43,068 nucleotides of DNA from Gammaproteobacteria bacterium (GTDB lineage Bacteria > Pseudomonadota > Gammaproteobacteria > Steroidobacterales > Woeseiaceae), in the NCBI GenBank assembly GCA_009937505.1, contig JAACFJ010000002.1, positions 1 through 43,068 of the forward strand, written 5' to 3'. Below, piece by piece: positions 5,597-35,291 of this stretch. A model generated the notes under the pieces. The model did not search any database and was not told the DNA's origin. It saw nothing but the letters and a program-made list of their open reading frames with translations. The position numbers and the translations under genes were made by a program. The stretch's first letter is position 1, and the number at the start of each line of letters is the position of its first letter.

Positions 5597-6384
5597 GCGA
5601 CGTATACGCGTTCTCGCAAGGTGATTCGCCGCTGCTGATCAGCGTGCCGCATGACGGCCGGCTGATCCCGGATGCGCAGCGCGCCCGCATGACGGAAGCC
5701 GGCCTTGCGATTCCGGATACCGATTGGCACGTTGCCGAGCTTTACGGCTTCGCCCGTGATCTCGGGGCATCACTCCTCGTGGCGCAGTATTCACGCTACG
5801 TCGTGGACCTCAATCGTCCACCGGACGACGGCTCGTTGTACGACGGCCAGGTCGCGACGGGGCTTTGTCCACAGCACACATTCTCGGGCGATTCCATTTA
5901 CTGTGACGACGCGCCCGTCACGGCGGCGGAGACCGCCGAGCGCGCAGAGTGCTACTGGCGCCCCTACCACGAACGGCTGTCGCGCGTGCTTGATGAGCTG
6001 CGAGCGCGCCACGGCTATGCGCTGCTGTGGGATGCCCATTCGATCCCCAGCCGGGTGCCGCGGCTATTCGACGGCGAGCTGCCGGTGCTCAACCTGGGCA
6101 ATTTCGACGGCCGGAGCTGCGATGCTGCCGTCGCCGACGAACTCTACCGGTGCGCATCTGCAAGCCCATACAGCGCCATATTGAACGGCCGCTTCAAAGG
6201 TGGCCACATCACCCGTCACTACGGCAATCCGGGCAACGGCGTACAGGCCGTGCAGCTCGAGCTCGCGCAACGCGCCTACATGGACGAGGCAACGCTGGAC
6301 TTCGACGCTGGTCTCGCGGACCGCCTGCGCGGCACGCTTGGGGCGTTGCTTGGGGTATTCACCCGGACCGCCGCCGTTCAGTGA
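5593..6384 (+). CDS. hutG: N-formylglutamate amidohydrolase HutG
   Basis: Hydrolyses N-formyl-L-glutamate to glutamate and formate, the last step of the route opened by HutF. The 263-residue protein shows the FGase family pattern: LLISVPHDGRLIP with a likely zinc histidine, DTDWHVAELY, YVVDLNRPPDDGSLYDGQ, LLWDAHSIPS, and GGHITRHYGNPGNGVQAVQLE near the C-terminus. The pairing with hutF is expected, since this enzyme type needs formylglutamate rather than formiminoglutamate. It is the last hut gene. No transporter or regulator follows it, and only a hairpin without a T tract (6437-6454) lies before the next gene. Confidence 0.94.
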   Translation: MSDVYAFSQGDSPLLISVPHDGRLIPDAQRARMTEAGLAIPDTDWHVAELYGFARDLGASLLVAQYSRYVVDLNRPPDDGSLYDGQVATGLCPQHTFSGDSIYCDDAPVTAAETAERAECYWRPYHERLSRVLDELRARHGYALLWDAHSIPSRVPRLFDGELPVLNLGNFDGRSCDAAVADELYRCASASPYSAILNGRFKGGHITRHYGNPGNGVQAVQLELAQRAYMDEATLDFDAGLADRLRGTLGALLGVFTRTAAVQ

Positions 6385-11261: not shown

Positions 11262-11839
11262 CTTGCGCCCCAATCGAGGAGGCCGCCGAAATGCAGTTCG
11301 CGCAAGGTGACGCTCGAGTCGCCGTTAACTTCCGCCAGCGGGGCGATGCAGTACAGCGTTCCCGCGATGAAGTAGACGTTCTCGCTATCCTCAATGCCCT
11401 GTTGTCCGGTGACGTCGGTCCAGCAGCTTTCGAGGCCCGATGTGCTGAAAAAGCGCCCGCTGCCTTCCTCGATTACCGTGACATTGCTGCCGAGTTCCCG
11501 CGCCGTGCTGGCGCGTTCGAGGCCGGGCATCGCGATGATGATCGCTATCGCCAGATCTCCCGATTTTCCCGCGAATCTCAGGCGCGCGCCTTCACCATTC
11601 GGGCGCGGCATGCCCGCGCAGTCGATATCGCCGGCAGACCAGTCGATCGGGCCCGAAAACTCGCCGTAAAAACTTGTGCGAAGGTAGCCCTGCTCGCCGC
11701 AACCGCGGGTCTCCGGCGGCGGTGGCAACAACGCCGGCAGCGCTGCCGGCTCCGGCGTATCGCCACAGGCGGCCAGCCAGGCGGATGCAACGGCTGCGAT
11801 CAGTGTCGAAGAAGGTACATTTTCGCGAATTCCCTGCAA
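11258..11839 (-). CDS. Putative lipoprotein of unknown function
   Basis: Unrecognised protein of about 193 residues. A signal with a lipobox (STLIAAVASAWLAAC) precedes a proline-rich linker (TPEPAALPALLPPPPETRGC). A probably globular part follows, with DWSAGDIDCAGMPRP, LAIAIIIAMPGLERA and SCWTDVTGQQ. Several paired cysteines would suit disulfides in the periplasm. I chose the TTG at 11839 because it gives a normal-length signal sequence; the frame stays open further upstream to 11929. The ribosome site is weak, so the start is tentative. The stop overlaps the DUF192 gene start, implying joint expression. Confidence 0.6.
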   Translation of the reverse strand: MQGIRENVPSSTLIAAVASAWLAACGDTPEPAALPALLPPPPETRGCGEQGYLRTSFYGEFSGPIDWSAGDIDCAGMPRPNGEGARLRFAGKSGDLAIAIIIAMPGLERASTARELGSNVTVIEEGSGRFFSTSGLESCWTDVTGQQGIEDSENVYFIAGTLYCIAPLAEVNGDSSVTLRELHFGGLLDWGAR

Positions 11840-11979
11840 TGTTCGTTGCTCGCTGTTGTCTGAGAACGGAACATTATTACCGAAGTGATCCACTGATGGA
11901 CAAAATTCACGGCGACGAGTTGGCCTCAACAGGCATCCTCTCTACAATGTCACGCCCCAAACCGGCCCGGGAGCCATTG

Positions 11980-12947
<968 letters not shown>

Positions 12948-12948
<1 letters not shown>

Positions 12949-13895
12949 TGCGGCAACTCGACCACATCTCCGAGAACGCATCGCCCGTCAGCGTGTCGCA
13001 ATCGGGCCTGATTCGCCTGAGCGGCCCGGCGCGTGCGATAGCGCTCGACGTGCTCAGGGTCCGGTCCCTGCAGACCGGCGCATACGTTTCGCATTTCCGC
13101 GGCCGCGGCATGGAATTCGACGAGTCGCGGCCCTACCAGCCCGGCGACGACCCGCGCTCGATCGACTGGCGCGTGACAGCACGCAGCACCACGGCCTACA
13201 CCAAGCTCTTTCGTGAAGAACGCGAGCGGCCGGTACTGGTCATGGTTGACCTGCGGTCCAACATGCACTTTGCGACCCGCGGCTGCTTCAAGTCGGTCAA
13301 CGCGAGCCGCGCCGCCGCGCTGCTGTCATGGGCGGCGCATCACCGCGGCGACCGTCTCGGCGGGCTCATCTTCGGCGACACGGTGCATCGCGAACTGAAA
13401 CCCCGGCTCGGCCGGCAGGCGGCCCTGCGGTTTCTGCACGAACTCGCCGAGCACCCGGACTGGGAGCGGCGTGAACACGAGCATGCGAATGACCGCGAAG
13501 CGCCGCTCACGCTGGCAATGGCGTCTCTGCGGCGTGTTGCGCGGCCTGGCAGCCTCGTCGTCATCCTCAGCGACTTCCTGGGTATCAATCGTGCCGCACA
13601 GTCGTACCTGTCGAGCGTGGCGCGCCATAACGAAGTGCTCGCTGTCGTCCTGAGCGATCCGCTTGAGCGCGAGTTGCCCCCGCCGGGCCGCTACAGGCTC
13701 ATCAGGGACGACGACGAGTTGGCTATCGACACCCATGCGCAGGCGGCACGCCGCGACTACCGGGACGCTTTCGAAAATCGCGCCCACGAACTCGGGCATT
13801 TTTGCCAGCGCTACGGCATCCACCTCATGCAGCTCTCGACGGACGACGATCCCGTCAGTGCGTTGCAGACAGCACTTGGAAGGAGGACGCACTAG
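12948..13895 (+). CDS. DUF58 domain protein of the MoxR/Bat operon
   Basis: A 315-residue protein with the DUF58 signature region GRGMEFDESRPYQPGDDPRS followed by IDWRVTARSTTAYTKLFREE. A VWA-like Rossmann part then follows (VLVMVDLRSNMHFATRG, SLVVILSDFLGINRAA). The true DxSxS MIDAS motif is degenerate here (DLRSN), as is usual in DUF58. It is translationally coupled to moxR (TAATG) and to the next gene (TAGTG). Its role is known only by association with MoxR ATPases and VWA membrane proteins. Confidence 0.9.
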
Positions 13896-14386
13896 TGGAT
13901 CCGCAGGAGATTCCGCTGCGCGCCCTGCACCTGCCGGAGGCGGTCGGCTGGTGGCCGCTTGCACCGGGCTGGTGGGTGCTCATCGTGTTGCTGGTCGCCG
14001 CTGCCGGTTTTCTGCTTCGTGCCTGGTCGAGACGGCGCGCACATGCGGCTGCGCGACGCAAGGCGCTCAAACAGCTGGAGAAAAGCCGCTCGGCGTACGC
14101 CTACCACGGGAACCCGGTCACGCTTGGCGCCGAAGTGTCGGAGTTGTTGCGGCGCACGATGCTTGCCTACGCGCCCCGCGCCGAGGTCGCCGGTCTTACC
14201 GGCGATGCCTGGCTCGCATGGCTGGACCGCGATCTCGACGAGCCGCGGTTTCACAAGGGCGCAGGCCGCAGCCTGCTTGAGCTGCCGTATCGCAAGCCCG
14301 AGACGGTCGCCGAGGATGTAGACATCGACGGCATGCTCGCGGCAGTTCGGGAGCGGCTGCGGACGCCGGTGGGGAGAGGCGCCTGA
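13895..14386 (+). CDS. DUF4381 membrane protein of the Bat operon
   Basis: A 163-residue protein beginning VDPQEIPLRALHLPEAVGWW. One transmembrane segment (about residues 23-44, WWVLIVLLVAAAGFLLRAW) precedes a cytoplasmic helical part rich in Arg and Ala, with LGAEVSELLRRTMLAY and LTGDAWLAWLDRDLDE. This is the DUF4381 layout found between DUF58 and the VWA genes in Bat operons. The GTG start at 13895 has an ideal AGGAGG upstream and overlaps the previous stop. Function is unknown beyond the operon context. Confidence 0.87.
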   Translation: MDPQEIPLRALHLPEAVGWWPLAPGWWVLIVLLVAAAGFLLRAWSRRRAHAAARRKALKQLEKSRSAYAYHGNPVTLGAEVSELLRRTMLAYAPRAEVAGLTGDAWLAWLDRDLDEPRFHKGAGRSLLELPYRKPETVAEDVDIDGMLAAVRERLRTPVGRGA

Positions 14387-15420
14387 TGCTGTCGTTCGCA
14401 TGGCCTTGGTTGCTCCTGGCACTGCCGCTGCCGTTCATCGCCCGCGCCCTGTTGCCCGAGGCGAACCAGCTGCAGGAAGCCGGACTTCGTGTGCCGAGCT
14501 TTGCCGGTTTCGACGTACTCGCCGACCGTTCGCGATCCGAGCAGTTGCTCAACTGGCGGATCTGGGTTGCGATGATCGCCTGGGTGCTGCTGGTCATCGC
14601 CGCGGCACGACCCGAACGTATCGGCGACGAACTCGAAGTGCCGGTATCCGGCCGCAACCTGATGCTCGCCGTGGATCTCTCCGGGAGCATGGACCAGAAG
14701 GATTTCGAACTCGGCAATCGTCGCGTCGACCGTCTCACGGCAACGAAAGCCGTGGCGAGCGATTTCATCAGCCGCCGGGAAGGCGACCGCATCGGCCTTA
14801 TCCTGTTCGGTGAGCGAGCCTATCTGCAGGTGCCGCTGACGCTCGACCGCGAAACGGTGAAGATACTTCTCATGGAAGCGTTTATCGGTCTCGCGGGCGA
14901 AAAGACCGCGATCGGCGATGCGATCACCCTCGCGGTTAAACGCATCCACGACCAGGAAGAGGATGCGGGCGAACAGGTGCTGGTGTTGTTGACGGATGGT
15001 GCCAACACGGCCGGCGAGATCGACCCGATGAAGGCCGCCGAGCTTGCCGCCCAGGTCGGGTTGCGTATCTACACTATCGGTATCGGCGCCGAGCAACTCG
15101 AGGTGGCCTCTATTATCGGCGGCCGCCGCCGGGTCAATCCGTCGGCCGATCTCGACGAGGAAACGCTCACGGGCATCGCGGATCTTACAGGCGGGCGCTA
15201 CTTTCGCGCGACCGATACCGCGACGCTGCAGGACATCTACAGGCTCGTTGACGAACTCGAGCCGGTCGAGGAGCCGGAAGCGGGCTTCCGGCCGGTCCAG
15301 TCATTGTATTTCTGGCCGCTCTCCGGGGCAGTCGCGCTCTCGGTTTTCCTCTGCATTGTGAGTTTGCTGCAATCGCTGCGCCTGCGGCGAATCAGCGGGG
15401 TACGGACCCATGCCGGCTGA
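14386..15420 (+). CDS. VWA-domain membrane protein (BatA-like)
   Basis: A 344-residue inner-membrane protein. An N-terminal membrane segment (4-24), a second at about 58-74 and a third near 305-330 frame a von Willebrand A domain. The MIDAS is intact: D97-L-S99-G-S101, with a conserved threonine region near GEKTAIGDA and VLVLLTDGANTAGEI for the downstream Asp. It should bind a divalent metal and partner proteins on the periplasmic or cytoplasmic face. Its start overlaps the DUF4381 stop (TGATG) and the following gene overlaps its end by 11 bases. BatA is an inferred name by position and architecture. Confidence 0.9.
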   Translation: MLSFAWPWLLLALPLPFIARALLPEANQLQEAGLRVPSFAGFDVLADRSRSEQLLNWRIWVAMIAWVLLVIAAARPERIGDELEVPVSGRNLMLAVDLSGSMDQKDFELGNRRVDRLTATKAVASDFISRREGDRIGLILFGERAYLQVPLTLDRETVKILLMEAFIGLAGEKTAIGDAITLAVKRIHDQEEDAGEQVLVLLTDGANTAGEIDPMKAAELAAQVGLRIYTIGIGAEQLEVASIIGGRRRVNPSADLDEETLTGIADLTGGRYFRATDTATLQDIYRLVDELEPVEEPEAGFRPVQSLYFWPLSGAVALSVFLCIVSLLQSLRLRRISGVRTHAG

Positions 15421-17212
15421 GTTTCAGTTTCTCCGTCCCGAATGGCTGTGGGCTATCCCGGCGGTAATCGCGACGGCAGTGCTGCTCGCCCGTCGCCAGC
15501 TCGGCCCGGGCAACTGGCAGCGGGTCGTCGACCCGGCGCTCGCGCCGCACATTCTGTCGGGATCTCCGCGCCGCAAATCCGATCTGCGCTGGTGGCTGGT
15601 CGGAATCACGGGGGTCATCGGCGTATTGTCGCTCGCGGGACCCGCGTGGCAGCGCATCGAGCAGCCGGTATACCGGTCCGACCAGGCGCTTGTCGTCGCG
15701 CTCGACCTGTCCCGGTCCATGGACGCGCAGGACGTTGCGCCGAGCCGGATGCTTCGTGCGCGCCTCAAGATTCTGGATATTCTCGAGCGCCGCGCCAGCG
15801 GCCAGACGGCGCTCGTCGTTTATTCGTCCAATGCGTTCACCGTTACGCCGCTGACGAATGACAACGACACGATCGCGGCGCTGGTGAACAGCCTGAGCAC
15901 GGATATCATGCCAAGTCGCGGCAGCTACCCCGCAGCTGCCATTTACAAGGGGCGGCAGCTTCTCGATCAGGCCGGAGCCGCTTTCGGCGAAGTATTGCTG
16001 ATTACCGATGGCGGCTCGTCGCCCGCAACCGAGCGGGCCGCGCGCGATCTTCGTGATGCGGGTTACACGCTGTCCGTGCTTGGCGCCGGCACGAAGGAAG
16101 GCGCCCCAATACCGAAGCTATCCGGCGGCTTCGTTACCGACCAGGCAGGACGGATAGCGGTTGCGCGTCTCGAGGAGCGCGGCTTGCGCGAGCTAGCGAT
16201 GAGCGGCTCCGGGCGTTACGCGACGCTGTCGTCGGACGGCCGCGACCTCGACTACCTGATGGCGGGCGAGGTCGGTACGCGCAAATCGAGCGACGACTCG
16301 CTCGCAACGGATCAGTGGCGGGAAGAAGGTCCGTGGCTCGCCTTGCTGTTGCTGCCGCTGGGCGCACTGGCGTTCCGGCGCGGCTGGGTCGTCATGCTCG
16401 CGATCGCCGTGCTGCCGCTGAGCCAGCCCGCCGAGGCTTCACTCTGGGACGACCTGTGGTTCAACAAGGACCAGCAGGCGCAGCGGCAACTCGAGGCGGG
16501 CAAAGCGGCGGACGCGGCCGGCCTGTTCGAGGATCCGGAATGGCGTGCCGTGGCCGAATACGAGGCCGGCGCATACGCGCAGAGTGCGGCGCGATTCGCG
16601 GAACAGGACGATTTGCGAAATCTCTACAACCTGGGCAACGCACTTGCCCGGCAGGGTGAGTTCGATTCCGCGATCGACGCTTACGAACAGGTGCTGGAGG
16701 CCGATCCGGACAACGAGGACGCGGCATTCAACCGGGACCTGCTCAAACAGATGCAGGACCAGGAATCGCAGCAGCAAAACCAGGGCGACGACCAGCAGTC
16801 ATCGGATCAGTCGGGCGGCGACAGCCAGGAGTCCGAAAGCGACGCCTCTTCGCAGAACGAGAGTTCGGAAGGTTCGTCGGATTCGCAAAGCCAGTCCGGC
16901 GAGCAGAACGCATCGCAGCGTGATGACGAGATGAGCGAGGAAGATATGCAGGCGCTGCAGGAGGAACTGCAGCGCGCGGCCGAAGAAGCCGAGAAAGAAG
17001 CCGGGCAGCAATCGCCCCAGCTCAGCGAGGAACAGCTCGAGGCACTGCGCCGCGAGCAGGAACAGCAGCAGGCAATGGAACAATGGTTACGACGAATCCC
17101 GAACGATCCGGGCGGACTCCTGCGCCGCAAGTTCCGCTACCAGTATCAGAGGATGGGACGCGACCAGGACGGCAATAACCTTTGGCCCGACGACGAGGTG
17201 CAGCCATGGTGA
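15410..17212 (+). CDS. VWA plus TPR membrane protein (BatB-BatC fusion)
   Basis: A 600-residue protein. Membrane segments lie near 12-28 and 61-78, a VWA domain follows (MIDAS D99-L-S101-R-S103, then VLLITDGGSSPA), and two hydrophobic segments lie near 305-345. After that comes a TPR-containing region (about 360-450: NLYNLGNALARQGEFDSAID, YEQVLEADPDNEDAAFNRDL). A long Gln/Ser/Glu/Asp-rich stretch (about 450-560) leads to the conserved ending WLRRIPNDPGGLLRRKFRYQ. In many genomes the VWA part (BatB) and TPR part (BatC) are separate; here they are one chain. The Q/S/E stretch is probably disordered. The gene overlaps the neighbours on both sides. Confidence 0.9.
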   Translation: MPAEFQFLRPEWLWAIPAVIATAVLLARRQLGPGNWQRVVDPALAPHILSGSPRRKSDLRWWLVGITGVIGVLSLAGPAWQRIEQPVYRSDQALVVALDLSRSMDAQDVAPSRMLRARLKILDILERRASGQTALVVYSSNAFTVTPLTNDNDTIAALVNSLSTDIMPSRGSYPAAAIYKGRQLLDQAGAAFGEVLLITDGGSSPATERAARDLRDAGYTLSVLGAGTKEGAPIPKLSGGFVTDQAGRIAVARLEERGLRELAMSGSGRYATLSSDGRDLDYLMAGEVGTRKSSDDSLATDQWREEGPWLALLLLPLGALAFRRGWVVMLAIAVLPLSQPAEASLWDDLWFNKDQQAQRQLEAGKAADAAGLFEDPEWRAVAEYEAGAYAQSAARFAEQDDLRNLYNLGNALARQGEFDSAIDAYEQVLEADPDNEDAAFNRDLLKQMQDQESQQQNQGDDQQSSDQSGGDSQESESDASSQNESSEGSSDSQSQSGEQNASQRDDEMSEEDMQALQEELQRAAEEAEKEAGQQSPQLSEEQLEALRREQEQQQAMEQWLRRIPNDPGGLLRRKFRYQYQRMGRDQDGNNLWPDDEVQPW

Positions 17213-18888
17213 ATTCACGCGACTTCGGTATGCATCGAGCGTGGCTCGCGCTCGTTACCATGCTGATGTCGATCAGCGCGGCACAGGCCGCCGTGACGGC
17301 GCGGGTGGATCGTAACGCCATCGACCTCAACGAGTCGTTCATGCTCGAGATCGTGGTCGACACGGATATCGATCTGCAACCCGATGTCTCGTCTCTTCAC
17401 GAGGATTTCTACGTCGGGCAGAGCAGTCAGCTCAGCAACACGATGATCGTCAACGGCGAAATTTCGCGTAGCCGTACCTGGACCTACCAGCTCATGGCCA
17501 AACGGACCGGCGAGCTGGTCATACCGCCGGTTGCCGTGGGTTCGGAGAGCAGTCAGCCACAGCGCATTACCGTGCGCCAGCCCACCAACGCGCCGCCTGG
17601 CGAAGCCGACGTCTTCATTACCAGCGAAGTCGATTACGCGGAGTCTTACGTGCAGGCGCAGGTGCTCTACCGCATCAAGGTGTATCGCGCCGTGCCGACG
17701 CGACAGCCGGCCCTGCGCGACCCCCAGTTTGGTGGCGCCGAAGTGCTGATCGAGGTAGCCGGCGAGGAACGCAGCTACGACGCGCGCCTGAACGACCGCA
17801 CCTACAACGTGGTCGAACGCGCTTACGCGATATTCCCGCAGGAAAGCGGCGAGGTCACCATATCGCCTGCGCGTTTCGAGGCGCGTGTTCTGCGCGCTGG
17901 CAGAATTACGGGACGCAAGGTGTTCGAGTCCGAACCGCAGGCGATACGTGTACTGCCGATACCGGAGCCGCCAGCCGATTTTCCCGACGCGGCATGGTTG
18001 CCGGCCAGGGACTTGCAGCTCCGCGATAACTGGTCGCGGCAGCCCGACGATCTGAAGGCAGGCGAACCGATAACCCGCGTCATCGAGATCAATGCGCTGG
18101 GTCAGCTGGAAACGCAGATACCGGCCATCGAGCCGCCGAACGTCAGCGGCGTCAACATTTACCCGGACAGGCCCGAGCTCAGCCGGCAGATCGAGCCCGG
18201 CGGTATCCGCGGCGTTCGCAAGGACCAGTACGCGATCATCGGCGTCGACGGCGGTGTCATGACCTTACCGGCGCTGCGGCTGCCTTGGTGGGATGTCGAA
18301 GCGGGCGAGTGGAAGGTTGCCGAGCTGCCGGAGCGCAGCATCAGCATACTGCCGTCGCGTGAGGCACCCGTCGTCGATCCGGCGCCGACGGTGACGACCC
18401 CGGTTGACGATACGGAGGCACCGTCCGCCGAGGTGTCCATGGGCCGCGATTTCTGGCGCCTCGTCGCGCAGGTAGTCGTCGTACTGTGGCTGCTGACGCT
18501 GGCCGCCTGGTGGTTGTCATCACGCCCGAAACGCGAGCCGCGCGAACCTGCCCCGCCGCCGCTGCACAAGCAACAGGCACGGCACCTGAAAGCAGCGCGC
18601 AAGGCGGCACTCTCGGGAGACGGAGCGGGTGTCAGGCAGGCGATGCTCGAGTGGGGGCGGCTGCAATGGCCCGATGACACGCCGCGCAGCATCGGCGCGC
18701 TCTCACGACGCGTGTCTGCGCCGCTGTCGGACGAATTGGGCCGGCTTTCCCTCGCTGCCTACGGACGCAACGGGGAGGGCTGGGACGGCCAGGCGCTCGC
18801 GAAGTCGGTGCGCTCTTTCGCCGTACTCGATGAGACCGGCGAGGATGCTGCGCGCGACCCGCTGCCGCCGCTGATGCCCCAGACCTGA
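17206..18888 (+). CDS. BatD-like protein (oxygen tolerance family)
   Basis: A 560-residue exported protein, last gene of the Bat operon. A signal sequence (HRAWLALVTMLMSISAAQA) precedes repeated beta-sandwich segments (VTARVDRNAIDLNESFMLEI, RTWTYQLMAKRTGELVIPP, YAIFPQESGEVTISPARFEA). A membrane segment near 425-445 (VAQVVVVLWLLTLAAWWL) follows, then a cytoplasmic helical tail. This matches the BatD layout. The start ATG at 17206 overlaps the preceding stop by seven bases. The family name comes from a Bacteroides aerotolerance phenotype; the molecular role is not established. Hairpin element pair B follows. Confidence 0.88.
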   Translation: MVNSRDFGMHRAWLALVTMLMSISAAQAAVTARVDRNAIDLNESFMLEIVVDTDIDLQPDVSSLHEDFYVGQSSQLSNTMIVNGEISRSRTWTYQLMAKRTGELVIPPVAVGSESSQPQRITVRQPTNAPPGEADVFITSEVDYAESYVQAQVLYRIKVYRAVPTRQPALRDPQFGGAEVLIEVAGEERSYDARLNDRTYNVVERAYAIFPQESGEVTISPARFEARVLRAGRITGRKVFESEPQAIRVLPIPEPPADFPDAAWLPARDLQLRDNWSRQPDDLKAGEPITRVIEINALGQLETQIPAIEPPNVSGVNIYPDRPELSRQIEPGGIRGVRKDQYAIIGVDGGVMTLPALRLPWWDVEAGEWKVAELPERSISILPSREAPVVDPAPTVTTPVDDTEAPSAEVSMGRDFWRLVAQVVVVLWLLTLAAWWLSSRPKREPREPAPPPLHKQQARHLKAARKAALSGDGAGVRQAMLEWGRLQWPDDTPRSIGALSRRVSAPLSDELGRLSLAAYGRNGEGWDGQALAKSVRSFAVLDETGEDAARDPLPPLMPQT

Positions 18889-27531: not shown

Positions 27532-28686
27532 TTGAATACGCCATTTACAGCTGCTCGACGATGCATAGTACTGCTGGCGCCTGTCGCGCTGGCTGGCTGC
27601 ACGTTCCTCGAAGATCTTTACTCCGGCTCGTCCGGCGACGCGCAGCCCGAAACCGTACCGCTCGAGGAGCGGCCGGTGGAGGAGCCGATCTCACGCAACT
27701 ATTTCGTGCTCGAGACGGAGACGCAGTCCGTCGTCGGCGCGCCGCAGATCGTCTATACCGATGCCGAAAACACCCTGTCCGACCTGGCCCGGGAATACGG
27801 CCTGGGCTACGACGAGATCATCGCCGCTAATCCCGGGGTCGATCCCTGGTTGCCCGGGGACCGGACACCGGTACTGTTGCCCACCCAGTACGTTGTCCCG
27901 GATGTCCCTCGCGAAGGCGTCGTGCTGAACATTGCATCGAAGCGGTTGTTCTATTTCCCGGAGGTTCCCGACGGCCAGCCGCAGACCGTGCTCACGTATC
28001 CGATCGGTATCGGGCGTGTGGGCTGGGAGACGCCCGTCGGCACGACGGAGGTGGTGTCGAAAGCAGCCGATCCGCATTGGTACGTGCCGGCGTCGGTTCG
28101 CCGCGAGCATGCCGAGTTGGGCAACCCGCTGCCGTCCGTGGTACCGCCGGGACCGGACAACCCGCTCGGCTCGCACGTGCTCAAACTGGCGATGCCCGGC
28201 TACCTGATTCACGGCACCAATCAGCCCTACGGCGTCGGCATGCGCGTCAGCCATGGCTGTGTGCGGCTGTATCCCGAGAACATAGAGCTCTTGTATTCGC
28301 TGGTCGGCGTTGGGGCGACCGTCCGCATCATCAACGAGCCATATCTCCTCGGGTGGCGAAACGGGGAACTGTATTTCGAAGCGCATGCGCCGCTGGAGGA
28401 CGATACGATCCCGGCTGAGGAACGGCTCCGGACTTTGCTGGAGAACGCCGAAGCCCATGCAGGTCTCAGTGAGCGCGACGCAGATCACATACGTTCCCTT
28501 GCGAGCACGGCGAACGGCGTGGCGTCCCTGGTGAGCTATCACGACTCACACGAGGTCTTCGCGCGCGCGAGCCTCGTCCGCAATACGGTCGAACCCGACC
28601 CCAATGCGCCGACGCTCACCGAGGTACGCGAACTCATGGATGAGGTCATGGCCGAGGAGCCGGAGGAAGAGGAAAAGGATTTGTGA
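27532..28686 (+). CDS. L,D-transpeptidase (YkuD/ErfK family), lipoprotein
   Basis: Peptidoglycan cross-linking or lipoprotein-attaching enzyme of the envelope. The 384-residue precursor has a lipobox ending at Cys23 (LAPVALAGC). A LysM-like segment (about 72-118: YTDAENTLSDLAREYGLGYD, EIIAANPGVDPWLPG) and a YkuD domain (about 128-262) follow. The catalytic motif is HGTNQPYGVGMRVSHGCVRL, with His241 and Cys243. The C-terminal 120 residues are acidic and helical, ending EEPEEEEKDL. The TTG at 27532 follows CAGGGGCCAGGG. Its stop overlaps a very small downstream gene (GTGA). Confidence 0.92.
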   Translation: MNTPFTAARRCIVLLAPVALAGCTFLEDLYSGSSGDAQPETVPLEERPVEEPISRNYFVLETETQSVVGAPQIVYTDAENTLSDLAREYGLGYDEIIAANPGVDPWLPGDRTPVLLPTQYVVPDVPREGVVLNIASKRLFYFPEVPDGQPQTVLTYPIGIGRVGWETPVGTTEVVSKAADPHWYVPASVRREHAELGNPLPSVVPPGPDNPLGSHVLKLAMPGYLIHGTNQPYGVGMRVSHGCVRLYPENIELLYSLVGVGATVRIINEPYLLGWRNGELYFEAHAPLEDDTIPAEERLRTLLENAEAHAGLSERDADHIRSLASTANGVASLVSYHDSHEVFARASLVRNTVEPDPNAPTLTEVRELMDEVMAEEPEEEEKDL

Positions 28687-28811
28687 GCGAATGGCTCGAC
28701 GTGATGCTCGAGGAAGTCGCCCGCAAACAACGCGAAGCGCGCGAGGCCGAAGAAGAGCAGAAGCGGCGCGAGCAAGGCGCGGACGAAACGGACGACGATC
28801 AGTCGAAGTAG
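28683..28811 (+). CDS. Small acidic/basic helical protein, coupled to the L,D-transpeptidase gene
   Basis: A possible 42-codon gene: GTG at 28683 overlaps the preceding stop. The product starts MSEWLDVMLEEVARKQREA and continues with a Glu/Arg/Lys-rich single helix ending in an Asp-rich tail. The overlap, sustained high GC at third positions and exact fit in the short gap favour translation. Against it stand low sequence complexity and short length. Its last 13 bases overlap the end of the convergent deaminase gene. No function is suggested. Confidence 0.45.
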   Translation: MSEWLDVMLEEVARKQREAREAEEEQKRREQGADETDDDQSK

Positions 28812-29857
28812 CGCAGAAACTCCGCAGGTAACAGTCCAATATCGATGGCGGACTCCGGGATTTCCGGCAACGGACTCGAGTTGTAGGTGTTCCAGAACAT
28901 CAGGAATGCGTCCCGGTGCTGTGCTTGTCCGGCGTCGTAAAGCAGTGCTGCCATCGCTTTGCCCGTGTAGGTGGACTCGAGGTCGAGACCGAGCGCATCG
29001 CGAGCAATGGAGATGGCGGCGTCCGTTGCCACGTTGCTCCTGGCGTAACCTCCAGCGAAGAATTCGTGCCGAACCTCGATACGCGCGCGGCGGTGGAGAT
29101 CGACGGGAATACTCGGGTCCAGCCTGTTGAGCATGCTCGCCGTCTTCGCCATCAGGTGATCCAGCCGCTTGCGGTTCATGATCTCGTCGGGCGACACGCG
29201 AACGGCCTGCACCTCGCTCTGCATGCCGGCCAGTGCGAGCCCCAGAGCCAGCCCCCCGGCCGAGCCCATCGTGCCGGTTGCCAGATAGATTCTTTCCGGT
29301 GCATCGATTTCGCCTGCACCGACCTGGGCTGCCAGTTCGAGACCGGCACTGACGTAGCCGACGGCGCCGAGCCAGGATGATCCGCCCAGGGGGATTGCCC
29401 AGGTGCGGCGGCCCTGCAGGTACCGGCGCATCGTTTCGACCCGGGACCGATAGTCTCCGCCGTACCGGACGATCTCGGCGCCGGATTGCAGCAGCAGCCT
29501 CAGCACTCTTGCTATGGCGGGCGATTCAACCTGGTGCGACAGCAGGCAGGTACAGTCCAGATCAAGACGCCTGGCATAGAGCGCCGTAGCCAACGCATGA
29601 TTCGATGCCACGGAGCCGAAGGTTGCGACGCGCTTCGCGCGTTTGTCGATAGCGCGCTGCAGGAGAAACTCGAGCTTGCGGATCTTGTTGCCGCCGTAAT
29701 ACGAACTCGTGAGGTTGTCGTACTTTATGCCGATATCACGCATACCGGATGCGGCTGGAATTGCGCCTCTGCCTACCGGTGTTGGCAGGTTCGCGAGCGC
29801 TACCTTGCGAAGTTTGCCTGCGAGTGCCGGATAGGCGTTGACTAGGTGATTGGTCAT
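28799..29857 (-). CDS. D-cysteine desulfhydrase / ACC deaminase family PLP enzyme
   Basis: A 352-residue fold-type II PLP enzyme. The PLP lysine lies in YYGGNKIRKLEFLLQRA (Lys58), the conserved ATFGSVASNHALATALYARR supports substrate carboxylate binding, and the phosphate-binding turn is YLATGTMGSAGGLALGL. Family members remove sulfide from D-cysteine or ammonia from 1-aminocyclopropane-1-carboxylate. The decisive residues cannot be settled by eye, although D-cysteine desulfhydrase is common in gammaproteobacteria. It is transcribed alone, divergent from the sheath-like gene with a 121-base gap. Confidence 0.83.
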   Translation of the reverse strand: MTNHLVNAYPALAGKLRKVALANLPTPVGRGAIPAASGMRDIGIKYDNLTSSYYGGNKIRKLEFLLQRAIDKRAKRVATFGSVASNHALATALYARRLDLDCTCLLSHQVESPAIARVLRLLLQSGAEIVRYGGDYRSRVETMRRYLQGRRTWAIPLGGSSWLGAVGYVSAGLELAAQVGAGEIDAPERIYLATGTMGSAGGLALGLALAGMQSEVQAVRVSPDEIMNRKRLDHLMAKTASMLNRLDPSIPVDLHRRARIEVRHEFFAGGYARSNVATDAAISIARDALGLDLESTYTGKAMAALLYDAGQAQHRDAFLMFWNTYNSSPLPEIPESAIDIGLLPAEFLRYFD

Positions 29858-29916
29858 GATGGCGTACTCATATTGTCAATCAGCGATGGCATAAGCAAAC
29901 GTCACTGACCGCGGCC

Positions 29917-29945
29917 TTGTTCATGGTGTTGGCAGGCCCTAGAAT
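29917..29945 (+). promoter_or_regulatory. Sigma70-type promoter of the sheath-like gene
   Basis: TTGTTC (29917-29922), a 17-base spacer, then TAGAAT (29940-29945). The predicted start near 29952 leaves a leader of about 27 bases, with GGAG six bases from the TTG start at 29979. This gives the sheath-like gene its own promoter. The following GTPase genes have no equally clear promoter, so they may be read from here. Confidence 0.6.
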
Positions 29946-29978
29946 GCGGGCACGGTAATCTGACTCACGGAGAACAAG

Positions 29979-31532
29979 TTGTCAGATGCGGTCGATCGTG
30001 GCATCACGGTCACAGAGATTGCGGCGATGGGCGAACCCATCGACGCAGCGCACGAATCCACGGCGGCCTTTGTCGGGCGCGCGCTTCGTGGTCCTCTGAA
30101 TACCCCTGTTCTCGTTCACACCTTTGGAGGGTTCCGGCGCCGCTTTGGAGACGTCTGGTCGCGCTCGAGCCTCGGTCCCGCCGTCAGGCAGTTTTTCGAA
30201 CACGGCGGCAAGAACCTCTACGTCGTGCGCGTCGCAAACGATGCACGCGGCGCGATGATCTGCCTGCCGGCGAGCGGTTCTGCGCTGGTGCTGCGGACAC
30301 TCGAGCCGGGCTCCACGGAATGCGTTCGGGCGGCCGTGGACTACGACGGAATCGACCTCGACAACGACGCGCTCTTCAACCTGACACTACAACGCGTGGA
30401 CCCGGTTTCGCGGCTCGTTATCGAGCAGGAGATGTACCGCAAGCTGAGTTATCTCGAGGAAGCCGATTCTTTTGTCGCCGACGCACTACTGACGTCGTCC
30501 CTGGTTCGCGTCGAGAAACCGTATCCGTCGCACAGGCCAGAGTCGACCACGCCCGGTAATGCCCGGCACGGTTCCGCGTATGTCGATCATGCGCAGGACG
30601 GCACCGACGGCCACGAGTTATCCGACTACGACCTGGTGGGCTCGCGACGGGGCAGCACGGGCATATTTGCGCTGGACCCGGTCGACCATTTCGACATCCT
30701 GTATCTGCCACCGCCGGGAAAGGGCATCGACCCGGGACCCGCGGCCGTACTGGCAGCAGAGCGTTATTGTCGCAGTCGCGGTGCCATGCTGATCATTGAT
30801 CCGCGCGCAGGCATCGAGAAGCCCGGAGCCATGGTACGAGAGGTCCGCGAGCAGGGTTATGCCAGCCCGAACATGGTGAGTTACTTCCCCCGGATGGCAC
30901 TTCGCAAGGATAGTGACGCGCAGCCGCGTGCGATTGGTGGGGCGATCGCCGGCCTGCTGTGCAAGCTCGACCGCAACTACGGCCCCTGGCATCACCTCGA
31001 TCGACACGGACTCGGTTTGAGCCGGGAGTTCGTGCCGGCGGTGCCTGTCGGCGAAGAAGACGCTCTGATCCTCACACGTGAGGGCATCAACGTGATCCTG
31101 CCCGGCGAGGCCGGCAAGGCGCGAGTGGCAGGGTCGACAACGATGGCGCGAGGGAGCGAGATGCAGCGCCCGCTAACCAGCCTCTCGGTGCGTCGCCTGT
31201 GCCTGCGCATCGTCAACTCTATCGAACAAGCGACGCAATGGGCCGTGTTCGAGCCCCTCGATGAAACCCTGGCGCAGCGTATTCAGAGCCAGGTATTTGC
31301 GTTCCTGAGCGCACTTGTCGACATGGGCGCGTTCGTCAGCGACCGTATCGACGTACAGTGCGACGCGGGGCTATGTCGAAGATCCGACGGCAATAATCAC
31401 GACATTTCAATTCTGATTTCGTTCCAGCCGTGCGGCTGCAGCAAGCCAATATCGCTGAGCCTGCATCAGTCAGTGGAAGGGTTCCGGGTCGCAAGCACCG
31501 CATTCGCACCCGTAAACGGCGACTGCGCCTGA
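29979..31532 (+). CDS. Phage-tail-sheath-like protein, orphan
   Basis: A 517-residue protein with the layout of contractile tail sheath subunits. The N-terminal domain has STAAFVGRALRGPLNTPVLV and AVRQFFEHGGKNLYVVRV (67-84). The core has GIFALDPVDHFDILYLPPPG (228-247) and the YCRSRGAMLIIDPRAG strand. The C-terminal domain has SLSVRRLCLRIVNSIEQATQ, WAVFEPLDETLAQRIQSQVF and AFLSALVDMGAF (401-452), the part that forms inter-subunit contacts in known sheaths. Five cysteines cluster at the end (461, 466, 485, 487, 516), which is unusual. No tube, baseplate, spike, terminase or AAA+ recycling gene is near. Two membrane GTPase genes follow 65 bases later on the same strand. Family assignment is by motif; any contractile function is uncertain. 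Confidence 0.8.
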   Translation: MSDAVDRGITVTEIAAMGEPIDAAHESTAAFVGRALRGPLNTPVLVHTFGGFRRRFGDVWSRSSLGPAVRQFFEHGGKNLYVVRVANDARGAMICLPASGSALVLRTLEPGSTECVRAAVDYDGIDLDNDALFNLTLQRVDPVSRLVIEQEMYRKLSYLEEADSFVADALLTSSLVRVEKPYPSHRPESTTPGNARHGSAYVDHAQDGTDGHELSDYDLVGSRRGSTGIFALDPVDHFDILYLPPPGKGIDPGPAAVLAAERYCRSRGAMLIIDPRAGIEKPGAMVREVREQGYASPNMVSYFPRMALRKDSDAQPRAIGGAIAGLLCKLDRNYGPWHHLDRHGLGLSREFVPAVPVGEEDALILTREGINVILPGEAGKARVAGSTTMARGSEMQRPLTSLSVRRLCLRIVNSIEQATQWAVFEPLDETLAQRIQSQVFAFLSALVDMGAFVSDRIDVQCDAGLCRRSDGNNHDISILISFQPCGCSKPISLSLHQSVEGFRVASTAFAPVNGDCA

Positions 31533-31597
31533 ACCGGAGCGGCGCCGGGACTGTGCAGGGTTCCTATTGGCCGCTTTTTGCGGCAGTGTGAACATCC

Positions 31598-33097
31598 ATG
31601 AAGCTGGACAAGTTCATCCGCACCGTTCTCGGGCTCGCGATCGTCGTGGTGTTCTTCATTGCGATCGGGGCGCTGCTGTTCTTTACCCAGACCGCGCTGA
31701 ATGTCTGGGACCGGCTCCTCGAAGGTCCGTGGATACTGCGCTGGGGTTACGTGGGTGCGATGATCGGGCTCGTTGTCCTCGCTATCTACCTGGTCTGGGT
31801 GCTGCTCATTCGCCGCAAGACACCTGCGGCAAAGAAGGCGGCCGCACGGCCACCGCTGAGCCGTGACGAGATTGAGGCCCGATTGCGGGATGCCGAAACC
31901 GCCGGCGTAGACGTGAGCGAAGCGCAGCGGGAATTGCAGGAACTGGCCGCCCGTCAACAGGCCGGCGGCATTCACCTCTGCTTCTTTGGAGAAATAAGCA
32001 CGGGCAAGAGTTCGCTCATCAAGGCGCTGGTGCCCGAAGCGAATGTCGCCATTGACGTCGTCGGCGGATCGACGGGCGACGTGCGCCATTACCGGTGGCG
32101 CGATAGCGAAGGCAGCGAGATTCTGCTGACCGACGTACCCGGTACGGGTGGCCATGAAGAAGGACTGGACGAGATGGCACTCGAGGAAGCGCAACGCGCC
32201 CATGTCGTGCTGTTCGTGTGCGACGGCGACCTGACGCGGGCGGAGAGCCAGGCTGTCGGGCACCTGCTCGCGCTCGACAAGCCGCTGGTGCTCGTCATGA
32301 ACAAGTCCGACCGTTTTACCGTCGAAGAGCAGGCGGCGATCATGCAGAAGCTTTTGCAGCGCGTCGATGACATGGGTGGTTCCCTCGAGCGCGACAAGGT
32401 CGTGGCGGTATCGGCGGGTGGCGAGCTGGATGTCGTGCAGCGCGGTGAAAATGGTGAGGAGCAGGTCATGCGGCGCCAACGTCCTGCCGATATCGGTGTA
32501 CTCGTCGTTGCTATCAATCGGCTGCTGGAGAACGAGGCCCAGCCGCTCGATGTACGCCGCGATCGCGCCGTTTTCCGGCTCGCGGCGGAGAAACTCGTCG
32601 AGGCGGAAGAAGAGTATCGCGTGCAGCGGTCCGAGCAGATCATTCGCAACTCGACGCGCAAGGCCGTTATCGGCTCCCTGGCCGCCGTGAGTCCCGGCAC
32701 GGACGTCATTATCCAGGGTTACATCGGCACAACGATGACGCAGGAGCTCTGCAAGCTTTACGGTGCGGCACCGAGGGACCTCGATATCGAGGAGTTCCTG
32801 GATCTGAGCCAGAGCCGGGTGGGCAAAACCTTGCCACTGACGCTGGCCGTCGCCGGTAACGGCCTGAAGGCGTTTCCCGGAATCGGTACGGTTGCCGGGG
32901 GTCTCGTTCATGCGGTCGCTTACGGCCTGATATTCGATGCGCTGGGGCGCAGCCTTGTGCTGACGCTCAAGCAGCACGGACAACTCGTACCCAAGGCGGC
33001 TGCGAAGGAATTCGAGGAAGGAATCAGTGAACATATTGAAGCGGGCGTTCGACGCGTTACCAGGCTGGCCCTGGAAGAAAAAGCGGACGCCGGCTGA
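31598..33097 (+). CDS. Membrane-anchored GTPase with C-terminal DUF697
   Basis: A 499-residue protein. Two N-terminal membrane helices (about 8-31 and 49-71) are followed by a helical linker (88-122) and an Era/dynamin-like GTPase domain. G1 is GEISTGKSS (131-139), a likely G2 threonine is in GGSTGDVRHY, G3 is DVPGTGG (179-185), and G4 is NKSD (235-238). The C-terminal part is a DUF697-like hydrophobic helical domain (GSLAAVSPGTDVIIQGYIGT, TMTQELCKLYGAAPRDLDIE, then glycine-rich helices). Before the ATG lies a small GCCGC-T5-GCGGC hairpin (31570-31584) and no good ribosome site. The following GTPase gene starts 71 bases inside its end. Role unknown; membrane remodelling or complex assembly are possibilities. 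Confidence 0.85.
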   Translation: MKLDKFIRTVLGLAIVVVFFIAIGALLFFTQTALNVWDRLLEGPWILRWGYVGAMIGLVVLAIYLVWVLLIRRKTPAAKKAAARPPLSRDEIEARLRDAETAGVDVSEAQRELQELAARQQAGGIHLCFFGEISTGKSSLIKALVPEANVAIDVVGGSTGDVRHYRWRDSEGSEILLTDVPGTGGHEEGLDEMALEEAQRAHVVLFVCDGDLTRAESQAVGHLLALDKPLVLVMNKSDRFTVEEQAAIMQKLLQRVDDMGGSLERDKVVAVSAGGELDVVQRGENGEEQVMRRQRPADIGVLVVAINRLLENEAQPLDVRRDRAVFRLAAEKLVEAEEEYRVQRSEQIIRNSTRKAVIGSLAAVSPGTDVIIQGYIGTTMTQELCKLYGAAPRDLDIEEFLDLSQSRVGKTLPLTLAVAGNGLKAFPGIGTVAGGLVHAVAYGLIFDALGRSLVLTLKQHGQLVPKAAAKEFEEGISEHIEAGVRRVTRLALEEKADAG

Positions 33098-34382
33098 CGA
33101 GGACGGGGGTGATGACCACCTCAATCTCGCCCGCGAGAGTCTGCGTGAACTGATCAACGACCAGCGCCTCCCCCCGGGCGTACGCGAATCGTTGTCGCAG
33201 GATTACGAGGCCGTTCAGGCCATGCTGGACAAGCTCGATCACGGCCATATTCACCTGGCCGCATTCGGCCGCGTGAGCACAGGGAAGTCTTCATTGCTGA
33301 ATGCCCTGATCGGGGAAGACCGGTTTGCCGTGAGCCCACTCCATGGCGAGACGAAGCACTCGGCCATGCAGGCATGGCGGGAGGAGGAGGCTGGTGGCGT
33401 CTACCTGATCGACACGCCCGGCCTCGACGAAGCCGGCGGCGAGGAGCGCGAGACGCTGGCAAAGGAAGTCGCCGGTCGTTCCGACCTCGTCCTGTTTGTC
33501 GTGGATGGCGACATTACGGAAACCGAACTCGAATCGCTTCGCACGTTGCTTGCCCGAGGGCGCCCGGTCATCGTCGTGCTGAACAAGCGCGACCTGTTTA
33601 CGGCCGACGAGCAGGCGCAGCTGCTTACGTCGCTGCGGGCGCGTACCGAAGGACTGATCGATCCGTCACACATTATTGCGGCTGCCGCACAACCACGTCC
33701 GCAGACCGTTGTCGAGGTCGACGCAACGGGCAACGAGATCACGGCACAGCGCGCGCGTCCGCCGGACGTCGAAGAACTCCGAGTCGCGCTGTGGGACATC
33801 CTCGACGCCGAGGGCAAGACGCTGGCAGCGTTGAATGCGAGCCTCTTTGCCGCAGACCTGAGCGACCAGGTCGGGCGCCGCATCCTCGCTGCGCGACGGG
33901 AGATCGGCGACAAGCTCGTGCGGACCTATTGTGTCGGCAAGGGCATCGCGGTCGCCTTCAACCCGGTTCCCGTGGCGGACCTGTTCGCAGCGGCATTCAT
34001 CGATATCGGCATGGTGGTGCACCTGTCGCGCGTCTATGATCTGCCTCTCAGCAACAGGGAGGCCGGTTCCCTGGTCGCTGTAATCGTCGCCGAGTCGGCA
34101 GCCTTGATGGGCACGGTCTGGGCGCTGCATTTCGTGTCGAGCGCGCTCAAGGTCGGCACGGTCGGGCTCTCCACCGTCCTGACCGCGGGCGCTCAGGGTG
34201 CCGTTGCCTACTACAGTACCTACGTGGTCGGGCGCATTGCCGCGGAGTACCTTGCGAAGGGCAAGTCGTGGGGCGAGGGGGGACCGAAAAAAGTGGTGCA
34301 GCGGATACTCGACGATCTCGATCGCGAGACGGTGCTGCGCGATGCCAGGCGCGAGATCCGCGCGCGGCTCAAGCTGGGGTGA
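33027..34382 (+). CDS. Second GTPase with DUF697-like membrane domain
   Basis: A 451-residue paralogue-like partner of the preceding gene. It lacks the N-terminal membrane helices. G1 is GRVSTGKSS (81-89), G3 is DTPGLDE (129-135), and G4 is NKRD (186-189). The C-terminal third is hydrophobic (VAFNPVPVADLFAAAFIDIG, VAVIVAESAALMGTVWALHF, VSSALKVGTVGLSTVLTAG), as in DUF697 proteins that insert into or lie on membranes. The GTG start at 33027 has AAGGAA upstream and overlaps the first GTPase by 71 bases, so synthesis of the two is closely linked. Two unequal GTPases made together suggest a heteromeric, dynamin-like pair. Confidence 0.84.
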   Translation: MNILKRAFDALPGWPWKKKRTPADEDGGDDHLNLARESLRELINDQRLPPGVRESLSQDYEAVQAMLDKLDHGHIHLAAFGRVSTGKSSLLNALIGEDRFAVSPLHGETKHSAMQAWREEEAGGVYLIDTPGLDEAGGEERETLAKEVAGRSDLVLFVVDGDITETELESLRTLLARGRPVIVVLNKRDLFTADEQAQLLTSLRARTEGLIDPSHIIAAAAQPRPQTVVEVDATGNEITAQRARPPDVEELRVALWDILDAEGKTLAALNASLFAADLSDQVGRRILAARREIGDKLVRTYCVGKGIAVAFNPVPVADLFAAAFIDIGMVVHLSRVYDLPLSNREAGSLVAVIVAESAALMGTVWALHFVSSALKVGTVGLSTVLTAGAQGAVAYYSTYVVGRIAAEYLAKGKSWGEGGPKKVVQRILDDLDRETVLRDARREIRARLKLG

Positions 34383-34392
34383 GGACGCTCGT

Positions 34393-34752
34393 GTGGAGAG
34401 ACAGGCACGGCTCACACGCATCTACGAGACGATTCGCGATATTCCGCGCGGCAGCGTGGCCAGCTACGGGCAGATCGCGGAGATTGCCGGCATCCCCCGC
34501 GGCGCGCGGCAGGTCGGCTGGGCGCTGAAGCAATTACCCGCTGGGCAGGACGTGCCCTGGCACAGGGTCATCACTGCCTCGGGTAGAATCGCCTTCGAGG
34601 CCGGCAGCGCCCGGTTCGAGAAGCAAAAGAAGCTGCTGAAGGGTGAAAATATCCCAGTAATCGCCGGTCGAGTCGATATGGGCAAATATCGCTGGCAGCC
34701 GCAGCTCGACGAGTTGCTGTGGAAGCCGACCTCGGCCTGGGATGAGCGTTGA
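34393..34752 (+). CDS. Alkyltransferase-like protein (ATL), MGMT homologue lacking the reactive Cys
   Basis: A 119-residue protein of the O6-alkylguanine-DNA alkyltransferase fold: IPRGSVASYGQIAEIAGIPR, then GARQVGWALKQLPAGQDVPW and HRVITASGRIAF. In true MGMT the active site is PCHRV; here it reads PWHRV, with Trp56 in place of Cys. This is the hallmark of ATL proteins, which bind O6-alkylguanine lesions, flip the base and hand them to nucleotide excision repair without removing the alkyl group. The GTG at 34393 has GAGG eight bases upstream and starts 10 bases after the GTPase stop. Confidence 0.93.
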   Translation: MERQARLTRIYETIRDIPRGSVASYGQIAEIAGIPRGARQVGWALKQLPAGQDVPWHRVITASGRIAFEAGSARFEKQKKLLKGENIPVIAGRVDMGKYRWQPQLDELLWKPTSAWDER

Positions 34753-34769
34753 ATCCGGGAGACCAGTAA

Positions 34770-35291
34770 ATGACGACAGTAATATTTTCGCACGGCCAGG
34801 AAAGCGGGCCCTGGGGCACCAAGATCAGGGCGATGGCCGCGATGGTGAAGGAACTCGGCTGCGCCGCCGACAGCGTCGACTACCAGGGCATCGCGGACCC
34901 GACGGAGCGGGTGGAGAAACTGGTTGCCGCATGCCAGGGGATCGATGACACACTGATACTCGTCGGGTCCAGCATGGGTGGACATGTTGCGACGGCGGCA
35001 GCCGAAAAGGTGAATGCGGCCGGGTTATTCGTGCTGGCGCCCGCCTACCACATGCAAGGCTACGAAGAACTGACGCCACTGCCGCCCGGCATGCCGATTT
35101 GCATCGTTCACGGCTGGCACGATGATGTCGTCCCCGTGGATAACAGCATTCGTTTCGCGCGCGAGTGCAATGCGGAACTGCATCTCATTGATAGTGATCA
35201 CCGCTTGACGGACAACGTTGTCGAAATCAGTGCCTACCTGAAACGCTTCATCAGAGCGGTTACGGGTGAATTACAGGAGAGCCCCGCATGA
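34770..35291 (+). CDS. Small alpha/beta hydrolase (YqiA/YcfP-like)
   Basis: A 173-residue serine hydrolase. The strand and oxyanion loop TVIFSHGQESGPWGTK lead to the nucleophile elbow LVGSSMGGHVATAAA. The catalytic Asp lies in VHGWHDDVVPVDNS and the His in LIDSDHRLTDNV. The minimal fold without a lid resembles the YqiA/RBBP9-like small esterases. Substrate is unknown. It starts 17 bases after the ATL gene and its stop overlaps the start of the small lipoprotein gene (ATGA), suggesting one transcript. Confidence 0.84.
   Translation: MTTVIFSHGQESGPWGTKIRAMAAMVKELGCAADSVDYQGIADPTERVEKLVAACQGIDDTLILVGSSMGGHVATAAAEKVNAAGLFVLAPAYHMQGYEELTPLPPGMPICIVHGWHDDVVPVDNSIRFARECNAELHLIDSDHRLTDNVVEISAYLKRFIRAVTGELQESPA

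Follow-up and report, generated by a model that had tools for sequence, protein, structure and literature searches.

The window analysed here, a 43,068-nucleotide stretch from a gammaproteobacterium of the family Woeseiaceae, order Steroidobacterales (contig JAACFJ010000002.1), carries at 29979–31532 on the forward strand a gene for a 517-residue protein with the fold of a contractile tail sheath. We found that this sheath occurs as a solitary gene in most genera of the order, in genomes that for the most part lack a recognisable tube, and that its sequence constraint is distributed differently from that of the sheaths of contractile injection systems (CISs). The best explanation as a whole, which we regard as probable, is exaptation of a sheath protein as a single chromosomal gene; that the protein is exapted and independent of a tube, taken by itself, is highly probable. 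To our knowledge, sheath proteins have been described solely as components of contractile machines. Bacteria of this type are common in marine sediments.

The identity of the protein was supported by both sequence and predicted fold. Residues 4–462 belong to PHROG 23 "tail sheath" (E 1.7e-32), and solved CIS sheaths from Halogeometricum (9ezm) and Streptomyces (8bky/8bl4) were matched by sequence at E ~5e-20. The Pfam cut-off was missed (PF17482, 19.6 bits versus 26.9, E 9.7e-4), and a Pfam search for PF04984 found no match in the protein or elsewhere in the window's assembly (G000); both families exceed their cut-offs in L098, a relative from outside the order. An AlphaFold2 model built with 28 relatives had a predicted local distance difference test (pLDDT) score of 86.3, with residues 1–13 below 50, and a predicted template modelling score of 0.86. 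Foldseek ranked the CIS sheath of Halogeometricum first (E 4.9e-26); by title, the best 50 of 94 Protein Data Bank matches at E ≤ 0.001 were all sheath or contractile-tail entries. Comparison with a viral structure library had the same outcome, with phage sheath models fitting the fold equally well. These results indicate that 29979–31532 encodes a real sheath-type protein. An earlier sequence-only reading of the window had described it as full-length and sheath-like and had proposed structure prediction against known sheaths as a check, and on both counts the reading holds. The gene starts with TTG at a position common to close relatives within the window's family, and a GGAG at 29969–29972, six bases 5′ of the start, may serve as a Shine–Dalgarno-like element.

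The same reading had called for a survey of homologues and their neighbours, which showed a solitary gene present across the order without a tube. With the single protein as query, 78 of 99 relatives matched (the window's own genome counted); one of them, G067, has a CIS with several sheaths, which leaves 77 genomes with the solitary type. A family profile of 28 sequences, searched at E ≤ 1e-40, matched 229 of the 296 genomes sampled from the order, in 55 of its 68 genera, including 166 of the 204 good assemblies (≥90% complete, ≤5% contamination), and profile-positive genomes were found in families f1–f7, f9–f11, and f15. Solitary status was assessed in 77 neighbourhoods (75 distinct) out of the 229 genomes, with the weaker f10 matches G984 and G989 left out. 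The small genomes of the family (1.1–2.0 Mb; genus g488, G004, G011, G051, and others) lack the solitary sheath, so lineages with reduced genomes can apparently do without it. Of 369 genomes sampled across the class, 47 matched at E ≤ 1e-8, five of them inside the order. We examined 25 of the 42 matching loci from outside the order, drawn from the best 30 matches, and 17 were left out, so solitary sheaths may spread wider than the order. In a phylum-wide sample only four of 398 genomes matched at E ≤ 1e-60, namely the window's own genome, G419 and G827, both with a tube beside the sheath, and G585, with no tube in its 4.5-kb locus (L124).

The tube and gp25 by which a CIS or an extracellular CIS (eCIS) is recognised were both missing. 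In the window's assembly, which is 88% complete, there was no match to the PF06841 tail tube, to a CIS tube protein, or to gp25-like PF04965, and a tblastn search of the 77 neighbourhoods (1.1 Mb) with thirteen tube proteins at E 1e-3 found no tube. Among the first 99 genomes, PF06841 was present in six, a CIS tube protein in five, and gp25 in seven; neither a tube (two queries) nor gp25 was found in 71 of the 77 genomes with a solitary sheath, the other six being touched by these searches. In the order as a whole (the 296 genomes of the sheath-profile and PF06841 searches are taken as one draw), 11 genomes had a PF06841 tube. Eight of these 11 (G264, G046, G010, G031, G012, G081, G988, and G1027) were among the 229 sheath-positive genomes, with the tube and the solitary sheath on different contigs in all eight, and the remaining 221 sheath-positive genomes had no recognisable tube. 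Among the single-contig genomes, G087, G863, and G868, for example, carry the sheath and are not among the 11. At loci L106, L120, and L121, the tube is adjoined by a separate sheath of its own. Relatives outside the order had a tube within the 1.5-kb flank in 23 of 25 loci (the sole tubeless cases were L088 and L093), compared with none of five inside the order, and a tube was present in all ten of the larger outside-order neighbourhoods. Pfam finds tube, AAA ATPase, Pvc16, and T4-baseplate families in one of these relatives, L098. Homologues lying in eCIS clusters without the neighbouring GTPases, which the sequence-only reading had named as evidence against its proposal, were thus found among outside-order relatives and not inside the order.

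The solitary sheaths form one lineage under purifying selection. In a tree of 49 sheaths, from which the multi-domain L107 and four loci from genomes already represented were excluded, all 37 solitary sheaths fell on one side of a single branch (100/100 support; 200/200 bootstrap trees), with ten CIS sheaths and two "second" sheaths of the window's genus on the other. The ratio of nonsynonymous to synonymous substitution rates (dN/dS) of the sheath was 0.06–0.18 in six pairs, a seventh pair being saturated. The corresponding polymorphism ratio (pN/pS) between the two closest relatives was 0.22 for the sheath, 0.21 for the neighbouring pyridoxal-phosphate enzyme gene, 0.09–0.13 for the transpeptidase gene, and 0.13 for PlsB. 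Internal stops were absent from the single-query homologues except for a second-copy match in G030. The same syntenic block surrounds the sheath across families, and family f16 has an empty site, where the H58 and MGMT-like genes that hold the sheath between them in f5 lie only 33 and 69 bases apart; this arrangement points to vertical fixation of the solitary sheath. A tblastn search of 50,697 phage records found no relatives at 1e-5, and plasmid records gave sheaths at 25–33% identity, including those of Streptomyces, Deinococcus, and Ensifer.

Second canonical sheaths occur at two loci of the window's genus. At L106:8498–17471 (G012), one adjoins a short tube-like open reading frame (ORF) of 106 aa, with genes for a TIR-domain protein, a Tle1-like phospholipase, and a CHAP-domain protein upstream, and the region is possibly a small sheath–tube–effector island. 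At L108:8188–9708 (G030), a lone second canonical sheath gene, sister to the L106 sheath (100/100), is perhaps a fresh case of tube loss.

The distribution of sequence constraint along the solitary sheath is inverted relative to that of injection-system sheaths. In structural descriptions of other sheaths, domain I carries the handshake and the tube-attachment helix, and further domains point outward (PMC8894135, PMC6088184, PMC9230969). By model and alignment, the window protein comprises an N-terminal alpha/beta part of the sheath wall (residues 28–92, 30060–30254), an inserted beta domain (residues 93–200, 30255–30578), and a C-terminal part of the lattice domain with helices and the last strands (residues 401–505, 31179–31493). 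Alignment places an N-terminal arm (GITVTE...) at residues 7–20 (29997–30038) as the counterpart of the handshake arm. By architecture, the inserted domain would correspond to the outward-pointing domain of other sheaths, and residues 429–448 (31263–31322) are a candidate tube-attachment helix, assigned from the helix described for other sheaths (PMC8894135, PMC6088184). Constraint was taken as the mean pairwise identity in one alignment over residues 8–92, 93–200, 201–300, 301–400, and 401–505. The values were 0.39, 0.23, 0.27, 0.46, and 0.52 for 19 CIS sheaths of the class, 0.41, 0.41, 0.39, 0.29, and 0.31 for 16 solitary sheaths from outside the window's family, and 0.76, 0.58, 0.62, 0.50, and 0.50 for 21 sheaths of that family. 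The C-terminal part is therefore looser and the insert tighter than in injection-system sheaths, with similar N-terminal divergence. In an earlier alignment, the ratio of insert to C-terminal identity was 0.35 (bootstrap range, 0.23–0.50) in 12 near CIS sheaths versus 1.36 (1.22–1.53) and 1.13 (1.08–1.18) in two solitary groups. Arm identity was highest in the window's family (0.79), intermediate in the broad CIS set (0.57), and lowest among solitary sheaths from other families (0.27). For the wall part, it was 0.45 among those other-family solitary sheaths and 0.34 across the broad CIS set. Of the 156 columns strongly conserved in near CIS sheaths, 74 had an unchanged majority residue in solitary sheaths from other families. 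The net charge of the candidate attachment helix, tried as an indicator of tube binding, did not separate the groups.

Taken together, the results are best explained by a CIS-type sheath that an ancestor of the order would have recruited, probably on a single occasion, and that would since have persisted as one chromosomal gene, working without a tube, a baseplate, or contraction. Under this explanation, the lattice-and-tube domain would have been relaxed while the N-terminal wall and the inserted, presumably outward domain were held tightly. A contracting helix is not to be expected of a protein with a relaxed lattice domain and an arm motif that is weak or missing in some members (L111, L112, and L114). 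Because the lattice is relaxed while the wall and insert are held, the most likely product would be a static cytoplasmic homo-oligomer or a scaffold/adaptor, with the inserted domain binding a partner. That the protein acts as a static scaffold or adaptor through its inserted domain is a tentative proposal. Slightly more tentative still is the picture of a tube-free, non-contractile ring or static tubule with the insert as its docking surface, which would make it a new bacterial scaffold derived from contractile tails and a core protein of the order.

Several points weigh against this explanation. Since the tree is rooted at its midpoint, the direction from CIS to solitary sheath is one that we infer, and because viral models match the fold equally well, a phage source is possible despite the missing sequence match. 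The 19 CIS sheaths share four sequences with the near 12 and contain near-duplicates, and the insert is comparable in only 78 of the 171 pairs of this broad set. The candidate attachment helix differs little, with identities of 0.38 in the broad CIS set and 0.31 in the solitary sheaths and overlapping ranges, so that loss of tube binding is argued from the absent tubes and not from the helix. Relaxation in other families also extends to the handshake arm and the last strands, both of them necessary for a sheath lattice, and this speaks against a canonical polymer. Our searches would have missed a tube that had diverged beyond the reach of PF06841 and of the thirteen CIS tube queries. Finally, no neighbour that would tell a function was found around the sheath.

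Other explanations fit the observations less well. The sequence-only reading had considered that the protein might be an ordinary subunit serving a machine encoded elsewhere, and such a sheath, with its tube and baseplate on other contigs or too diverged to recognise, would agree with the full-length fold, with the eight sheath-positive genomes that do carry a tube, and with the complete-looking second sheath–tube loci of genus members (L120 and L121). We consider it unlikely because 221 of the 229 genomes lack a recognisable tube; moreover, gp25 is found in just seven of 99 genomes, four of which carry the solitary sheath, the tubes that do exist lie on other contigs and at three loci have their own sheath beside them, and the lattice/tube domain is under relaxed constraint. 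The kept fold and the conserved wall part would also suit a decoy that joins and spoils the assembling sheaths of phages, of rivals, or of the cell's own injection systems in defence or regulation. Co-assembly, however, would call for the arm and the last strands, the very lattice parts that are relaxed in other families, and no defence gene was found among the neighbouring genes scanned, which makes a decoy quite improbable. If the gene were decaying after the loss of an injection system or prophage, this could account for the relaxed C-terminal domain and the lack of any other tail gene nearby, but the low dN/dS, selection much like that on the neighbouring pyridoxal-phosphate enzyme gene, the near-absence of internal stops, and retention at one syntenic place in 229 of 296 genomes make decay very unlikely.

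We regard it as equally improbable that the sheath forms a polymer acting jointly with the two membrane GTPases next to it, a tie that the sequence-only reading had proposed. GTPase 1 (slr1306-like, MMR_HSR1; 31598–33097, forward strand) begins 65 bases 3′ of the sheath gene and overlaps GTPase 2 (33027–34382, forward strand); both were identified by Pfam, and we treat them as neighbours without claiming that they belong to the sheath. They had been described as twin DUF697-like proteins, which holds for the second (DUF697, E 3.5e-31) and not for the first, in which no DUF697 was found. The close spacing in the window, adjacency in five other genus genomes, and a shared strand in all 43 genus genomes with sheath and GTPases on one contig would agree with a joint role. 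In these 43 genomes, however, the gap was within 300 bp in only six, 1.9–2.8 kb in ten, and 4.5–6.5 kb in 27, the intervening genes encoding a sigma factor, DUF1800, DUF1501, and DUF885 proteins, and two small proteins that match no Pfam family; in 14 further genomes (ten in the genus), the sheath and GTPases lie on different contigs. Outside the window's family, eight genomes had both, 13 the sheath only, six the GTPases only, and 11 neither (Fisher p = 1.0). Families f2, f7, f10, and f15 have the sheath without a GTPase match, and f14 and f16 show the reverse; the GTPases lie within 4 kb of the sheath in 10 of the 77 neighbourhoods, and plsB follows them with or without a sheath. Exaptation as a solitary gene thus retains the part of the earlier "repurposed polymer" idea that concerns a genuine solitary sheath, probably repurposed given its order-wide, tubeless occurrence and shifted constraint, and drops the tie to the GTPases. 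These results place the sheath within a conserved block of housekeeping genes, and its position next to the GTPases in the window reflects one local form of that block. The block of sigma factor, small-protein, DUF1800, DUF1501, and DUF885 genes (L048:6174–12407 and other family loci) has entered or left the space separating the sheath from the GTPases many times within the genus. As a pair, the overlapping GTPase genes (31598–34382 and loci L116, L117, and L118 of G088, G075, and G086) are conserved ahead of plsB in several of the order's families, whether or not the sheath is present.

The sequence-only reading had also stated that the gene stands alone in 43 kb, which holds insofar as a Pfam scan of 27 window proteins (smaller ORFs being left out) found no phage-tail gene, although no genome search was aimed at a spike, tape measure, or cap. 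Besides the sheath, two of these 27 proteins had no family above the cut-off, and the remainder, the GTPases included, belong to chromosomal families. An AAA+ gene, by contrast with what had been stated, is present: a MoxR-type ATPase at 11674–12948, beside DUF58, VWA, and BatD genes and not of the sheath-recycling type. The region 11674–18888, with the MoxR-type ATPase followed by DUF58, VWA, VWA/TPR, and BatD, is the usual MoxR–Bat set. At 2400–6384, genes for urocanase, an aromatic amino acid lyase (by context, probably histidine ammonia-lyase), and N-formylglutamate amidohydrolase point to histidine use. The good promoter ascribed to the sheath gene was not recovered, since a scan limited to the sigma-70 type gave none in 29500–34900 (mean of shuffles, 1.0). 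Terminator-like sites around the sheath numbered three versus 3.4 expected, so a transcript boundary cannot be drawn.

The most persistent upstream neighbour, by Pfam and neighbourhood counts, is an L,D-transpeptidase (YkuD; 27532–28686, forward strand), found within 4 kb in 56 of 77 loci, always 5′ of the sheath and co-directional; 69 of these loci hold 4 kb upstream and 68 hold 4 kb downstream, and two duplicate pairs are among them. A lipoprotein-like start, read by eye, suggests that it is periplasmic. As a periplasmic protein of a conserved housekeeping block, it was set aside as a partner, and no functional tie is claimed. Between it and the sheath lies a divergent gene for a pyridoxal-phosphate enzyme (28799–29857, reverse strand; Pfam and neighbourhood comparison), kept in the family and presumably D-cysteine desulfhydrase-like.

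A conserved solitary sheath, or the domestication of a sheath, was not described in the literature that we searched, with most subscription papers outside its coverage. One large survey counted only systems with baseplate, tube, and sheath-initiator genes (PMC12210884), a design that filters out lone sheaths. A tubeless sheath fixed in most genera, with constraint shifted off the lattice, would, if true, be an evolutionary experiment in the reuse of parts. Our findings suggest that the cell has put part of a molecular syringe to a different use, and cultured members should permit a direct test of its role.

Among known systems, polysheaths are tubes formed by a sheath fold without a partner. 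The sheath protein gp053 of phage FV3 self-assembles without a tube into a polysheath (PMC6357053), and the sheath proteins of T4 and phiKZ likewise form polysheaths without the tube protein (PMC6088184). As several phage sheaths form tubes alone, a static polymer could physically occur in nature, and the window protein may possibly self-assemble in the same way; polysheaths, however, are laboratory products or by-products of assembly and not a natural solitary gene. Phage N4 gp65 is a protein named as a tail sheath that has a job other than contraction; likened here by description only, it is a phage virion protein, unlike the chromosomal solitary sheath. The CIS sheaths of Halogeometricum and Streptomyces have the same overall fold and are related in sequence, but they stand with tube, baseplate, and ATPase genes, whereas the window gene stands alone. 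The nearest relatives outside the order are the single-component eCIS sheaths of related gammaproteobacteria (L096–L105), mostly of similar length. In all ten of these loci a tube adjoins the sheath, and the C-terminal domain, which is the most conserved part there, is among the least conserved in the solitary sheath.

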